From positions 1 through 64,000 of the forward strand of contig PGXB01000009.1 in assembly GCA_002838945.1 (NCBI GenBank): DNA of 64,000 nt, written 5' to 3'. Below, one piece after another: positions 11,988 through 43,316 of the stretch. Every line of letters starts with the position of its first letter. Positions within the stretch are counted from its first letter, which is position 1. The notes below the pieces were generated by a model that searched no databases, was not told the origin of the DNA, and worked only from the letters and a program-made list of their open reading frames with translations. The stretch is from a candidate division Zixibacteria bacterium HGW-Zixibacteria-1. Lineage in GTDB: Bacteria; Zixibacteria; MSB-5A5; GN15; PGXB01. The translations under genes and the position numbers were made by a program.

Positions 11988-13220
11988 ATGAAAGCAAATC
12001 TACATATTGACGGCACAAATGCCGGTAAACCTCTCAAAGTTCTTTTCGTCACTCACAATTATATCCGGTTTGTGGGGGATTTTGCCGGGGTCTTTTTGCA
12101 TTTGCTGGCCAGGAAACTCAGAGAGAACGGGATAGAGGTCCATGTAGTTGCGCCTCATGATGCCGCTATTCCTGAAATGGAAGAGATCCAGGGCATCAAG
12201 ATTTACCGTTTCAGGTATGGTCCCGACGAAAAAGAGACTTTTGCCTATCGCGGCAACATGCACCGCCAGCTATTCAGGAATCCTTTCAAGATTTTCAGAT
12301 TGTTGAAATTCCTGTCGTCGGCCCGGAGACTGGCGTCGGAAGTGATCGAAAAAGAGAATATTCCTGTCGTCTCGGTGCACTGGCTGGTGCCGAATGCGCT
12401 TATCGGTCGTCGATTGAAGCGCAAATATAATGACAAAATCAGGCTGCTTTTTCATTCTCACGGGACCGATGTGCGACTGCTGACCGGAGTTCCGTTTGTA
12501 TATACCTTTCTAAAACCCACTATCAGGAAGGCCGAACGCTGGACGGTGGTTTCGAGTTACCTGAAAAATCTGGTGACAGCAAAAGACAATTCAATCGGAG
12601 ATAAAATCGAAATCATCCCGCTTCCCAATGACGAGAAGATCTTTTATCCCGATGATAATGTTCTCGAGGATTCCAACCTGGTGGTGGCGGTTTCGAGGTT
12701 GACATCACAAAAGCGACTTTATTTGTTACTGAAGGCAATCAAGATTGTCTCTGGAAAGCACCCGAATGTAAAGCTTGGCATATACGGAGCCGGCCCTGAA
12801 AAAGAGAGTCTGGAGAATCTGATAAAAGAATTGGGGCTGGAGGGCCGGGCAAAAATTCACAAACCGGTCGATCAGAGAGACCTGAGGCAGGTTTATAATA
12901 AGGCCGCGGTGGTGGTGCTTAATTCGGTCGATGAAGGCTTCGGGTTGGCGTTGACCGAGGCGATGTTGTGCGAGACGGCGGTAATTGGAGCCCGGTCGGG
13001 TGGAATTGTCGATATTATTGATGATGAAAAGACGGGTCTTCTGGTCGTTCCGGATGATGTCGAGGACTTATCCCGTGCGATTCTAAGGATTCTGGAAGAT
13101 GCCACTTTACGCCAGCGGCTCGGAGAAGCGGGGTATGAGAAGGCAAAAGCGAGTTTTTCATCGGAAGCATCAGCCGCCCGATTTGCGGAGCTATTCAAGG
13201 GTAAAAAATCAACTCAATGA
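11988..13220 (+). CDS. Glycosyltransferase family 4
   Basis: This 410-residue protein is a GT-B-fold retaining glycosyltransferase. The N-terminal domain opens with a 'VLFVTHNYIRFVGDFAGVF' loop. The linker and C-terminal domain hold 'VVAVSRLTSQKRLYLLLKAI' and the nucleotide-sugar site 'EGFGLALTEAM', which fits the ExxFGxxxxE pattern. It acts at the cytoplasmic face on an unknown acceptor. The gene is isolated from the exopolysaccharide operon at 22.7 kb. Its last 12 bases overlap the end of the convergent gatE gene. Confidence 0.88.
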   Translation: MKANLHIDGTNAGKPLKVLFVTHNYIRFVGDFAGVFLHLLARKLRENGIEVHVVAPHDAAIPEMEEIQGIKIYRFRYGPDEKETFAYRGNMHRQLFRNPFKIFRLLKFLSSARRLASEVIEKENIPVVSVHWLVPNALIGRRLKRKYNDKIRLLFHSHGTDVRLLTGVPFVYTFLKPTIRKAERWTVVSSYLKNLVTAKDNSIGDKIEIIPLPNDEKIFYPDDNVLEDSNLVVAVSRLTSQKRLYLLLKAIKIVSGKHPNVKLGIYGAGPEKESLENLIKELGLEGRAKIHKPVDQRDLRQVYNKAAVVVLNSVDEGFGLALTEAMLCETAVIGARSGGIVDIIDDEKTGLLVVPDDVEDLSRAILRILEDATLRQRLGEAGYEKAKASFSSEASAARFAELFKGKKSTQ

Positions 13221-15143
13221 AGATGTTGATGCCAGCCGGGCATCTATTCTGGTCAGAATATCTCTGACATCAGTATATCTTGCAAGCAATTTTCCCGCAA
13301 AATACCGCCTGAATTTATCTTTGGAATTATTGCTATTCCTGCCCGCGAACTCCGTCAGCGAACTTTTCCAGGCCGCATTAAACTCATCATCGGTGAGAGT
13401 CATTTCCGAGGCTTCGGTATCAATGATGCCATCGGCCGCCAGAATCAAAATCTGCTTCAGTTTATTATAGGACCAGTTTCCGTTGAAGGAACCTTTGATA
13501 ATTTTGGAAAGGTGCAGCGTGTCACATTTGGTGAGGTCATATCCCCGGCGTCTCAACCCGACGAAAAGACCGGTGCAGATATGTGCCATCTTTTTCAGAT
13601 AACCGGAATATTCTTTATCCGAACACTCTTTGGCCAGCCGGTCGAACAGGTCGGCGAAGCGTGACAGCGAGAGCGCCTTAACTTGTTCCTCATGGAGACC
13701 CAGCTCCGACCAGCGGCGATGTTTCTCCCACAGGGGTTCGCCCACGGCGGTCCGGAGAGCATCGACTCTTTCCCCTGCAATTCTGACCGGGGGATGATCG
13801 GTATCCGGATACATTCGATCGGGGCCGGGGAGGATGCGCTCGAAATCGGTAGTTCCGTCTTTTATATCCTGACGGGTTTCATTGGGAACACCCGAGGCTA
13901 GTTCGGATATACGAATTTTTATTTCATTGATGGCGGTCGTGATATCTTCGGACGGTCCGCAAATCAGGACGATATCATCGCCGCGTTCCGGCTTGAGTTC
14001 ATCGACCACATTATTCCAGAGTTCTTCGGGGATATCGTACTTTTCCCGCTGGGAGTAGAAAAACAGGTTGGGTCGGGTGTCGATACAGGCGATGACCCTG
14101 ACTCGTCCCGACAGCTCAAAGCCAAAATCCCGTCCCGGCTGGAGCATATATGATATAATATCCACCATTCGGGGCAGTTTCAATCCGACCACTTTGAGGG
14201 GATGGTCACTTTCCAATCGTCGTCCTATCTGATTGGCGGTGCCGCTGAAATTCAAAGTGAAAACGGCTTCATCGTAAGGTATCTCACCCGGTTTGGGGAA
14301 ATGCTCCCTGAAGATATTTTTCAGCTCCAATAATCCCTGTTGGCGATATGCTTCAGAGGCGGTGAGATCGGGAATATTGCCGACTTTATGTACACCTTTG
14401 ATTTCGACCCGGTCGCCGCCGGTAATGGAGACATTGACGTCCTGGCGGACGGTTCCGATGCCTCGCCGAACGAGCCCCGTAACCTTCATGGCATTGCCCA
14501 GCAGGCGGCAGACCTCGGCCGCTTCACCGGGATCCTTCATGTCGGCACCGGTGATAATTTCCACCAGCGGAATTGACAGTCGGTCGGTGGCAAAGACAAT
14601 GCAATGGCCGATATCGGAAACCTCCCGGCAGGCCTCTTCCTCAAGATTGACCTGCGAAATCTCTATCTTTTTTCCTTTGAAGGGGACCCAGCCATCGATT
14701 CCAATTATCATGGTCCTTTGGAAGCCGGTCGGGATGGAGCCGTCAAGGTACTGCTTTCGAATCACATGAAGTTCATCGACTATTTTGCAGTTAAACAGGA
14801 GGGCCAGTTTTATGGCGATATCGACCGCCTCCTGATTGACCAGGAAGGGAGGCGTATCATCCATTTCATAAGTGCAGGTTCGTTCGCGATAAAGCCGGTA
14901 AATGACATTTTTTTTGGTCTTGAACTCCATCAGGGCGGTGCCGTCATACTCCCCCAGTTCCGAGAGAGTCGGCCGCATATGCCGCAAAATTTCAGCGTCA
15001 TGGGGGGCGCCGGTCAACCCGACGGGACAATGACAAAACAGTTTATTTTTTGTATTAAGCTGCTGGTGAATTTCCAGCCCGCATTTAAATCCCAGTGATT
15101 TCAACAGGGCATAGTTTTTTAATTCAAAATCATTTTTACTCAT
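13209..15143 (-). CDS. gatE: Archaeal-type Glu-tRNA(Gln) amidotransferase subunit E
   Basis: This 644-residue protein opens with the GatB/GatE kinase domain signature 'CGLEIHQQLNTKNKLFCHCP'. The GatE-specific region follows: 'RHMRPTLSELGEYDGTALMEF', 'RERTCTYEMDDTPPF', 'GFQRTMIIG' and 'IGTVRQDVNVSI'. A long middle insertion (about 290-420) fits the AspRS-like GAD insert of GatE, and the C-terminus is the helical tail/YqeY-type tRNA-binding region. GatE activates Glu-tRNA(Gln) with ATP and takes ammonia from the asparaginase-like partner GatD. GatDE is regarded as the archaeal system; most bacteria use GatCAB. No gatD is in the window. The ATG at 15143 is chosen over a TTG at 15155. Confidence 0.92.
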   Translation of the reverse strand: MSKNDFELKNYALLKSLGFKCGLEIHQQLNTKNKLFCHCPVGLTGAPHDAEILRHMRPTLSELGEYDGTALMEFKTKKNVIYRLYRERTCTYEMDDTPPFLVNQEAVDIAIKLALLFNCKIVDELHVIRKQYLDGSIPTGFQRTMIIGIDGWVPFKGKKIEISQVNLEEEACREVSDIGHCIVFATDRLSIPLVEIITGADMKDPGEAAEVCRLLGNAMKVTGLVRRGIGTVRQDVNVSITGGDRVEIKGVHKVGNIPDLTASEAYRQQGLLELKNIFREHFPKPGEIPYDEAVFTLNFSGTANQIGRRLESDHPLKVVGLKLPRMVDIISYMLQPGRDFGFELSGRVRVIACIDTRPNLFFYSQREKYDIPEELWNNVVDELKPERGDDIVLICGPSEDITTAINEIKIRISELASGVPNETRQDIKDGTTDFERILPGPDRMYPDTDHPPVRIAGERVDALRTAVGEPLWEKHRRWSELGLHEEQVKALSLSRFADLFDRLAKECSDKEYSGYLKKMAHICTGLFVGLRRRGYDLTKCDTLHLSKIIKGSFNGNWSYNKLKQILILAADGIIDTEASEMTLTDDEFNAAWKSSLTEFAGRNSNNSKDKFRRYFAGKLLARYTDVRDILTRIDARLASTSSLS

Positions 15144-15323: not shown

Positions 15324-16031
15324 ATGGGATCAATAGAAGCCATCATAGACCGTCAGCTTCGTAAATGGGAGCTGGAGCAACGGATACGTCGGGAAGCGGC
15401 CGAAAAAGGCAAAAAGCCGATTGTCAAACCGATTGTTACTATCAGCCGTCAGAGGGGCAGCCAGGGGAGACATATTGCGGCGCAATTGGCTGAAAAACTT
15501 GGTTATGATTTTCTGCATCGGGAGGTAATCGACAAGATTTGCGAGTCATCGGGCTACAGACGCAAAATAATAGAATCACTTGATGACAAGGTTCGTCATG
15601 GGATTGAACTCTGGTTCGAGGGGGTATTCAAGGGACCTTATGTCGACGCTTCGGATTATTTTCGCCATCTCTACCGGGTGATTATGACTATTGCGGAGCA
15701 TGGAGGCGTGGTGGTCGTGGGGCGCTGTGCCAATTTTATTGTTAAGGCCGACCAGGGATTTCACCTTAGAATTGTCTGCTCACTCTCCCGGCGGATTGAG
15801 ACCCTGGTCAAACATCAGGGGTTTACCCCGAAGGCGGCGGAGCAGGAAATCAAGGAATTCGATCGCAGCCGGGCCGAATTTGTCAGGCGCAATTTTCACC
15901 GGGATATCAATGACCCGATGGCTTATGACTTGATTATCAACACTACTTTCATAGAGAGCGACCAGGCTGTCAGGCTGATTGAAGAGGGGATGAGGGCCAA
16001 GACCTTATCAGGGATTAAGTTTCCAGAATAG
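15324..16031 (+). CDS. Cytidylate kinase-like protein, copy 1
   Basis: This 235-residue protein of the cytidylate-kinase-like family has a basic helical N-terminus of about 37 residues. It is followed by a P-loop-like 'TISRQRGSQGRHIAAQLAE', where the usual GxxGxGK[ST] is replaced by GSQGR as in that family. Next come 'YDFLHREVID', the central 'GGVVVVGRCANFI', the lid 'CSLSRRIETL', and a helix with 'FDRSRAEFVRRNFHRDI'. True cytidylate kinases phosphorylate CMP; the substrate of this branch is not known. A strong ribosome binding site (GGGAGG) precedes the ATG. A paralogue follows 243 bases downstream. Confidence 0.82.
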   Translation: MGSIEAIIDRQLRKWELEQRIRREAAEKGKKPIVKPIVTISRQRGSQGRHIAAQLAEKLGYDFLHREVIDKICESSGYRRKIIESLDDKVRHGIELWFEGVFKGPYVDASDYFRHLYRVIMTIAEHGGVVVVGRCANFIVKADQGFHLRIVCSLSRRIETLVKHQGFTPKAAEQEIKEFDRSRAEFVRRNFHRDINDPMAYDLIINTTFIESDQAVRLIEEGMRAKTLSGIKFPE

Positions 16032-16274: not shown

Positions 16275-16997
16275 ATGCCTCTTGATATGAAGCCTGATAG
16301 AAAGGCCATAGATAAATTAATTGAAATACAATGCCGGAAATGGGAGTTGAGCCGCCGGCAATTGGCGAGTGGAAAAAAGAGTGAATCCACATGCCAAAGA
16401 CACCCGATAGTCACTCTAAGCCGCATGCGGGGGAGCCAGGGGCGGTATATTGCCGAACAGCTGGCCAAACGTTTCGACTATCGGTTTCTTGACCGCGAAG
16501 TGATTGATGAGATTTGCCGCGTCAGTAAATTCCGAAAGCAGGTTATTGAACTGGTTGATAATTATGCCCGGAAGGAGATTGAACTGATTGACCGCCCGCT
16601 TTTAAGGGAAAAATATATCGGTAAAACCAATTACTTCCAACACTTGACCAATGTAATTCTCTCCCTGTCTTCGCTGGGAGGTGTCGTGGTATTGGGGCGG
16701 TGTGCCAGCTATATTGCTAAACCGTCCGAAACATTCCGTATCAGGATCGTCGCCCCGGTTGCCCGCCGGATAAATAACCTGGTAAAATTCGAAAAGCTGA
16801 CAAGGGAGAAGGCTATGGAGGAAGTGAGAAAGTCAGATAAACAGCGCTCCGATTTCGTCAGGAAATATTTTAAGAAGGCTGTCATGGGACTGGATCAATA
16901 CGATATATTAATCAATACTGCTTACTATGATGTCAATGATGCCATTGACTTGGCGGAAGAGGCGATGCGGCGTAAATTCAAGCTCGAAAGAAAATAA
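16275..16997 (+). CDS. Cytidylate kinase-like protein, copy 2
   Basis: This 240-residue paralogue of the preceding protein shares its architecture throughout: a basic N-terminal helix with 'CRKWELSRRQLASG', the P-loop-like 'LSRMRGSQGRYIAEQLAK', 'YRFLDREVIDEIC', 'GGVVVLGRCASYI', the basic lid 'APVARRINNL' and 'DKQRSDFVRKYF'. Residue-by-residue similarity shows a tandem duplication followed by divergence. The separate promoter candidate at 16092 and the terminator at 17018-17045 suggest that it can be transcribed alone. Kinase activity and substrate are not established for this branch. Confidence 0.82.
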   Translation: MPLDMKPDRKAIDKLIEIQCRKWELSRRQLASGKKSESTCQRHPIVTLSRMRGSQGRYIAEQLAKRFDYRFLDREVIDEICRVSKFRKQVIELVDNYARKEIELIDRPLLREKYIGKTNYFQHLTNVILSLSSLGGVVVLGRCASYIAKPSETFRIRIVAPVARRINNLVKFEKLTREKAMEEVRKSDKQRSDFVRKYFKKAVMGLDQYDILINTAYYDVNDAIDLAEEAMRRKFKLERK

Positions 16998-17294: not shown

Positions 17295-17741
17295 ATGCCA
17301 GTTAAGAAGACGGCAAAGAAGAAACCCGCGGCAAAGAAGCCGGCGGCCAAGAAGAAACCCACCGCAAAGAAAACCACAAAGAAGGCAGCGCCCAAGAAAA
17401 AAGCTGCTACCAAGAAACCCGCTACTAAAAAGGCTGCGCCCAAGAAGGCCGCACCCAAGAAAAAAGCAGCTCCCAAGAAGAAAGTGCCGCGCAAGCCTAA
17501 TCCGGCTTTCATGAAGCCCATGACACCGGATGCTATGCTGGCGGTTGTTGTCGGGAGTAAGCCCATTCCTCGGACCGAGATCACGAAGAAAATCTGGGCC
17601 TACATCAAGAAGAACAAACTTCAGAATCCCGAAAACAAGAGAGAGATCATGGCCGATGACGCTTTGAAGCCGCTCTTTGACGGTAAGAAGAAGGTCAATA
17701 TGTTTGAGATGACCAAGCTGGTCAACAAGCATATGAAATAG
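17295..17741 (+). CDS. SWIB/MDM2-domain protein with histone H1-like lysine/alanine-rich tail
   Basis: This 148-residue protein has two parts. Residues 1-70 are almost entirely Lys, Ala, Pro and Thr in short repeats such as KKAAPKK and KKPAAKK, like histone H1 C-terminal tails and bacterial H1-like proteins. Residues 71-148 are a SWIB domain, visible as 'KPMTPDAMLAVVVGSKPIPR', 'ITKKIWAYIKKNKLQNPENK', 'MADDALKPLFDGKKKVNMFE' and 'MTKLVNKHM'. SWIB domains occur in eukaryotic chromatin remodellers and, in bacteria, in Chlamydiae and scattered groups. The tail should bind DNA without specificity, so a nucleoid-associated role is likely but inferred. The gene has its own terminator and a leader of about 250 bases without another gene, with a possible weak promoter near 17082-17111. 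Confidence 0.92.
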   Translation: MPVKKTAKKKPAAKKPAAKKKPTAKKTTKKAAPKKKAATKKPATKKAAPKKAAPKKKAAPKKKVPRKPNPAFMKPMTPDAMLAVVVGSKPIPRTEITKKIWAYIKKNKLQNPENKREIMADDALKPLFDGKKKVNMFEMTKLVNKHMK

Positions 17742-42914: not shown

Positions 42915-43292
42915 AGGAAGAGGAGAAAACGGTCGCGCTTTATGATTGAATGAAGTGAGGAAAGTCCGAGCTCCACAGAGCCATGGCGCCCGGTAACGCC
43001 GGGGCGGAGAGATCCGACGGAAAGTGCCACAGAAAATATACAGCCCACCTGAATGCCGCAAGGCCTTCAGCGGCAATGGTGAAATCGAGGTGTAAGAGAC
43101 CCCGTTCAGGCCGGGTAATCGGTCTGGAGGTAAACCCCGCCAGGAGCAAGGCCAAATAGGGAAAGAGGGGCTGGCTCGCCCCGTTTGATTTCCGGGTAGG
43201 CTGCATGGAACCGGCAGGCAACTGTCTGGTCAAGATAAATGACCGTACCGCCATTTATGGCGGAACAGAACTCGGCTTATTCTGCTCTTTCT
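42915..43292 (+). ncRNA. rnpB: RNase P RNA, bacterial class A
   Basis: About 378 bases hold all the universal RNase P RNA landmarks: GAGGAAAGTCCGAGCTCCACAG (CR-I, about 42956-42977), the central ACAGAAAATATACAGCC region, GGTAAACCCC, AGATAAATGACCG, and ACAGAACTCGGCTTAT (CR-V) near the end. The outer ends pair as stem P1 (42915-42926 with 43281-43292). The RNA cleaves tRNA 5' leaders. A -10-like TATAGAT at 42894-42900 could give it its own start. It lies between guaB and recJ. Confidence 0.95.
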
Positions 43293-43316
43293 GGCTTCTT
43301 ATAAAAGGAATCAGAA

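Follow-up and report, generated by a model that had tools for sequence, protein, structure and literature searches.

Type-B GatDE amidotransferase genes occur together with glutaminyl-tRNA synthetase in Zixibacteria and other bacteria

The tRNA-dependent amidotransferase GatDE was found in bacteria as a complete, conserved and selected system that co-occurs with glutaminyl-tRNA synthetase (GlnRS) and that is neither contamination nor a one-off. The main surprise was that the bacterial form of GatE, here called type B, accompanies GlnRS rather than replacing it. Two 2022 reviews describe GatDE as exclusively archaeal: PMC8762117 treats it as a signature protein, and PMC9499178 adds that GlnRS is missing from all known archaea. 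Their scenarios for LUCA and for the coevolution of tRNA(Gln) rest on archaea-only GatDE and GlnRS-free archaea. The genomes examined here contradict both premises. A search of the open-access literature found no report of bacterial GatDE or archaeal GlnRS; automatic annotation may already name the genes. The pairing of GlnRS with GatDE, if true, would mean that glutamine coding can be arranged in a new way and that GatDE is no archaeal signature, and it offers a testable case of direct and indirect glutamine charging side by side.

The gatE gene and its host genome

The window, the 64,000-nucleotide stretch of DNA that was analysed, comes from contig C9; the assembly has 82 contigs, a size of 3.8 Mb and a completeness of 96.7%. 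The gatE open reading frame (13209-15143, minus strand) starts with ATG and encodes a type-B Glu-tRNA(Gln) amidotransferase subunit E of 644 amino acids. The product scored above the cut-offs of both NCBIfam GatE equivalogs (469.2 bits against 456 for NF003107 and 424.4 bits against 319.6 for TIGR00134, gatE_arch), and all NCBIfam GatB models fell below theirs, the top score being 137.6 bits against 338. The nearest PDB chains were the GatE proteins of M. thermautotrophicus (2d6f, 3.5e-91) and P. abyssi (1zq1, 5.2e-87), and GatB chains reached about 1e-20 at best. An AlphaFold2 model built from type-B relatives (mean pLDDT 86) matched 1zq1_C and 2d6f_D best in Foldseek (TM-score normalised by target 0.78-0.79), followed by GatB structures. 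Cut-offs, tree and predicted fold were concordant in identifying a true GatE and not a GatB, as the initial annotation had claimed. The GAD-type insertion that it had also described appeared in the predicted fold as an alpha/beta GAD-like region at about residues 291-424, ahead of a helical tail at about 457-640, but neither the Pfam GAD nor the YqeY profile matched the window protein significantly, this copy being divergent in the GAD and tail regions. The GAD insertion and YqeY tail were found in part of the type-B clade; the tail was detected by profile in 24 of 30 versus 8 of 12 type-B GatEs, counts that gave no support to a loss of the tail tracking the presence of GlnRS. Comparison with the gatE of relative G009 gave a dN of 0.22 and a dS of 1.8 (dN/dS about 0.12), and the window gene is under clear purifying selection.

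A glycosyltransferase gene (11988-13220, plus strand) converges on gatE and, as previously described, overlaps it, by 12 nt; on the other side of gatE lies a divergent, putative cytidylate-kinase-like gene (15324-16031, plus strand), named for its resemblance in sequence. Both flanking genes recur beside gatE in relatives of the family, and gatE was also present on the single-contig assemblies of relatives G008, G044 and G055 and on two chromosome records. Farther along the window is a bacterial class A RNase P RNA (42917-43294, plus strand; Rfam RF00010, 263.5 bits). The closest named relatives of the window GatE belonged to Candidatus Zixiibacteriota, and the host is a Zixibacteria-type bacterium. 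The conserved neighbours, the single-contig relatives and the RNase P RNA bear out the bacterial chromosome proposed initially, and with the position of the protein apart from type-A archaeal GatE they effectively refute a chimeric assembly or a bacterial bin contaminated with archaeal DNA. A chimera had been raised in the initial annotation, and the explanation draws on the fact that most genomes used here are metagenome-assembled; its probability is now negligible.

Two further features of the window lie near gatE. The cytidylate-kinase-like gene is followed by a similar one (16275-16997, plus strand), the two forming a tandem pair, and 17295-17741 (plus strand) encodes a small protein whose tail is a long repeat rich in Lys, Ala and Pro, histone-H1-like in appearance.

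The initial annotation had reported gatE without a gatD nearby and had proposed searching the genome for partner genes. No gatD was found near gatE within the window, but the genome has one on contig C34 (5174-6376; 519.7 bits against a cut-off of 324), so GatDE is complete in this organism. The Thr, Thr-Asp and Lys of the asparaginase-type site were intact in this GatD, within the motifs GTGGT, HGTDT and RKM. GlnRS and a single GltX lie together on contig C17 and AsnRS on contig C10. In the search gatB came out in two pieces, one at an end of contig C36 (L260, 9880-9991) and the other at an end of contig C3 (L261, 1-130), and nowhere intact. Both pieces end at inverted ends with a common TGCTCCCCATT, 5 nt of the target (CAGAT) are duplicated, and the interrupting repeat end also begins contigs C3, C7 and C64; gatB appears to be interrupted by a multi-copy mobile element in this assembly.

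Two types of GatE

In a quick maximum-likelihood (ML) tree rooted with GatB as outgroup, GatE and GatB each occupied one side with a support of 100, and the GatB/GatE tree that had been proposed initially thus placed the window protein outside GatB. The canonical archaeal GatEs, including both PDB proteins (2d6f and 1zq1), formed type A with a support of 99. Type B comprised every bacterial row together with 11 archaeal ones, with a support of 94 in the quick ML tree and 100 in a wider FastTree set of 157 rows, which gave the same main split; the archaeal rows were mainly from one phylum. The bacterial GatEs made up one side of a branch with a support of 77 (quick ML). The window GatE belonged to type B, outside the archaeal clade of 2d6f and 1zq1. 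The protein had initially been called archaeal-type, a description that gives way to membership of a broad, mostly bacterial clade with signature residues of its own; it is not a stray archaeal gene. The family of the window branched separately from the GatE clade of other Zixibacteria families, indicating two GatE lineages in one order.

Type-B GatDE resembles archaeal GatDE (TIGR00134 and NF003107 for GatE, TIGR02153 for GatD; 2d6f and 1zq1) in that both subunits scored above cut-offs and have the same fold, in the GatD catalytic residues and in 76 GatE columns that both types conserve, many of them common to GatB. It differs in forming a separate clade, in 16 type-specific residues and in its gene order, gatE-gatD as opposed to the archaeal gatD-gatE. 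The window genome departs further from the canonical archaeal system in being bacterial, in having GlnRS and in a tRNA(Gln) with U1:A72 and G73. GatB and GatE belong to the same catalytic-domain superfamily (PF02934) and, judged by their families, carry out the same chemistry, but bacterial GatCAB has GatA instead of the GatD glutaminase, and GatB is the separate clade in the tree above. GatCAB can serve asparagine as well. Deinococcus, Thermus and Bdellovibrio have GlnRS, AsnRS and GatCAB together (PMC4206432). They resemble the present case in having direct and indirect charging enzymes in one cell and differ in that their GatCAB can serve asparagine synthesis. To our knowledge archaeal GatDE acts only on Glu-tRNA(Gln), so the asparagine explanation does not carry over to GatDE.

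Co-occurrence of GatE and GlnRS

The relatives searched comprised 60 genomes, including that of the window, and GatCAB was scored through its GatB subunit. Clear gatE matches were present in 46 of the 60 and partial ones in two more, and gatD was above cut-off in most of these. Co-occurrence was counted in the 42 relatives that were at least 90% complete, presence being read by hand from the gatE, gatD and GlnRS searches. All 35 genomes with GatE had GlnRS, one genome had GlnRS without GatE, and six were GatCAB-only, with neither GatDE nor GlnRS. The association gave a Fisher p of 1.3e-6, a value that overstates independence because the genomes are related. The complete relatives almost always kept gatE and gatD together. 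AsnRS was nearly universal among the relatives, also in the GatCAB-only genomes, and GatCAB there therefore most likely serves glutamine; retention of GatB for asparagine is unlikely. How Gln-tRNA(Gln) is supplied, the question put by the initial annotation, is thus a real one, but the outcomes listed there did not include the one observed, in which GatDE coexists with both GlnRS and AsnRS, whether GatCAB is there or not.

Archaeal GatDE reads the A1:U72 pair of tRNA(Gln) (PMC9499178). The zixibacterial tRNA(Gln)(UUG) had U1:A72 and G73, alike in GatDE and GatCAB-only genomes, and coevolution of bacterial tRNA(Gln) with GatDE found no backing, as no shift to A1:U72 was seen. The Arg358 position of T. 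thermophilus GluRS, which is linked to discrimination, mostly kept its Arg in the GltX of genomes with GlnRS. The Arg was also present in GatCAB-only genomes, which must charge tRNA(Gln) indirectly, so this marker is not decisive and was uninformative within Zixibacteria.

Species representatives of GTDB were scanned with a GatE alignment, which detected 530 encoding stretches; the best 80 of these carried about 19 bacterial phylum labels, a few of them coarse, and included two archaeal records. A GatD-family open reading frame was found in 66 of 94 GatE loci, typically adjoining gatE in the order gatE-gatD; apart from gatD, the GatE neighbourhoods contained nothing recurrent and no neighbour hinting at function. 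GlnRS was above cut-off in 32 of 45 genomes with such loci and split in one more. Nine of the 12 genomes without GlnRS had GatB. The other three were G064 (1.2 Mb, no GlnRS and no GatB match), G082, which is probably incomplete because a GltX-like match is missing too, and G095 (Neomarinimicrobiota). The G095 assembly contained adjacent gatE-gatD, two GltX types and tRNA(Gln) and had no GlnRS or GatB match, making it the best candidate for GatDE as the only route to Gln-tRNA(Gln). Phage and plasmid copies of GatE were also considered, and the matches were only GatB-level except for one haloarchaeal plasmid match. The GatB-like matches in the unannotated phage records OR847198, OR846597 and OR848338 are probably host DNA.

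The archaeal sample came from the phylum to which a Candidatus Thermoplasmatota record belongs. Of the type-B archaeal genomes, 9 of 11 had GlnRS above cut-off, as did G183, whose GatE is on a long branch, and the type-A genome G217; none of the 17 other archaeal genomes tested of that phylum did. The archaeal GlnRS proteins (from G079, G205, G109, G113, G139, G162, G183, G217, G077, G123 and G132; L265-L275, L338, L339, L360-L363) formed one clade with a support of 100, and in several genomes tRNA(Gln) genes with A1:U72 adjoin glnS, with discriminator G73 in some and A73 in others. The single clade and the adjoining tRNA(Gln) genes argue against contamination. The type-B genomes occupied at least three places in the archaeal GluRS tree, giving 2-4 independent pairs, mostly in the same direction and too few for significance. 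G123 and G132 carried a type-A gatD-gatE operon plus a separate type-B gatE (L356-L359).

Possible roles of GatDE beside GlnRS

On balance we lean towards GatDE being an intact Glu-tRNA(Gln) amidotransferase that would serve as a second route beside GlnRS and remove Glu-tRNA(Gln), a role assigned from its family. GluRS would make Glu-tRNA(Gln), GatD would, as expected for its family, free ammonia from glutamine, and GatE would use ATP and this ammonia to turn Glu-tRNA(Gln) into Gln-tRNA(Gln). GlnRS would supply most Gln-tRNA(Gln), with GatDE clearing the mischarged Glu-tRNA(Gln). GatCAB would be dispensable beside these enzymes, in keeping with the many relatives that lack it and with the apparent break in the gatB of the window genome. 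In the few bacteria that have neither GlnRS nor GatB, of which G095 is the best case, GatDE would be the only route, and in such rare lineages it probably is. This second-route role is supported by the identity of GatE, the GatD catalytic residues, the 76 conserved columns, the YqeY tails in the clade, the gatE-gatD pairing in most loci, purifying selection, the association of GatE with GlnRS in relatives and archaea, the split gatB and the gene set of G095. Against it, the Arg kept in the GltX of most GlnRS-containing genomes suggests that Glu-tRNA(Gln) may be scarce, the bacterial tRNA(Gln) has U1:A72 where archaeal GatDE reads A1:U72, and the tail and GAD regions of the window GatE have diverged.

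We favour a second route over repurposing of type-B GatDE, in which an active amidotransferase would act on another tRNA-bound or non-tRNA carboxylate or would take part in GlnRS-linked glutamine sensing. Such a change of function is the rather unlikely alternative: it would accommodate GlnRS in nearly all GatE-containing Zixibacteria relatives and in most GatE-containing genomes elsewhere, the 16 residues fixed differently in the two types, the type-B gatE kept beside a type-A operon in G123 and G132, and tRNA(Gln) that lacks the archaeal pair, but the type-B clade has retained the catalytic and most tRNA-binding features, G095 has no other known route, and no neighbouring gene suggests another role. 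The patchy presence of GatDE, the divergence of the window copy and the separation of its gatD from gatE could instead mark a redundant relic that was once inherited or acquired, no longer has a function and is disappearing. The low dN/dS, the joint retention of gatE and gatD in almost all complete genomes and the invariant motifs make a relic improbable. A wider scenario can be offered tentatively, in which GatE would comprise two old subfamilies. The unrecognised type B would partner GlnRS across many bacterial phyla, and likewise in several archaeal lineages whose GlnRS was acquired alongside tRNA(Gln) genes of their own, with GatDE correcting or supplementing charging by GlnRS and GluRS.

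Two GltX types were present in each of G095, G092 and G093, all of which have GatDE and lack GlnRS (L355, L387, L418-L421). One of the two types has an LWMxxRxxLTGxxHGP-like motif, which may be the mark of a GluRS that charges tRNA(Gln).
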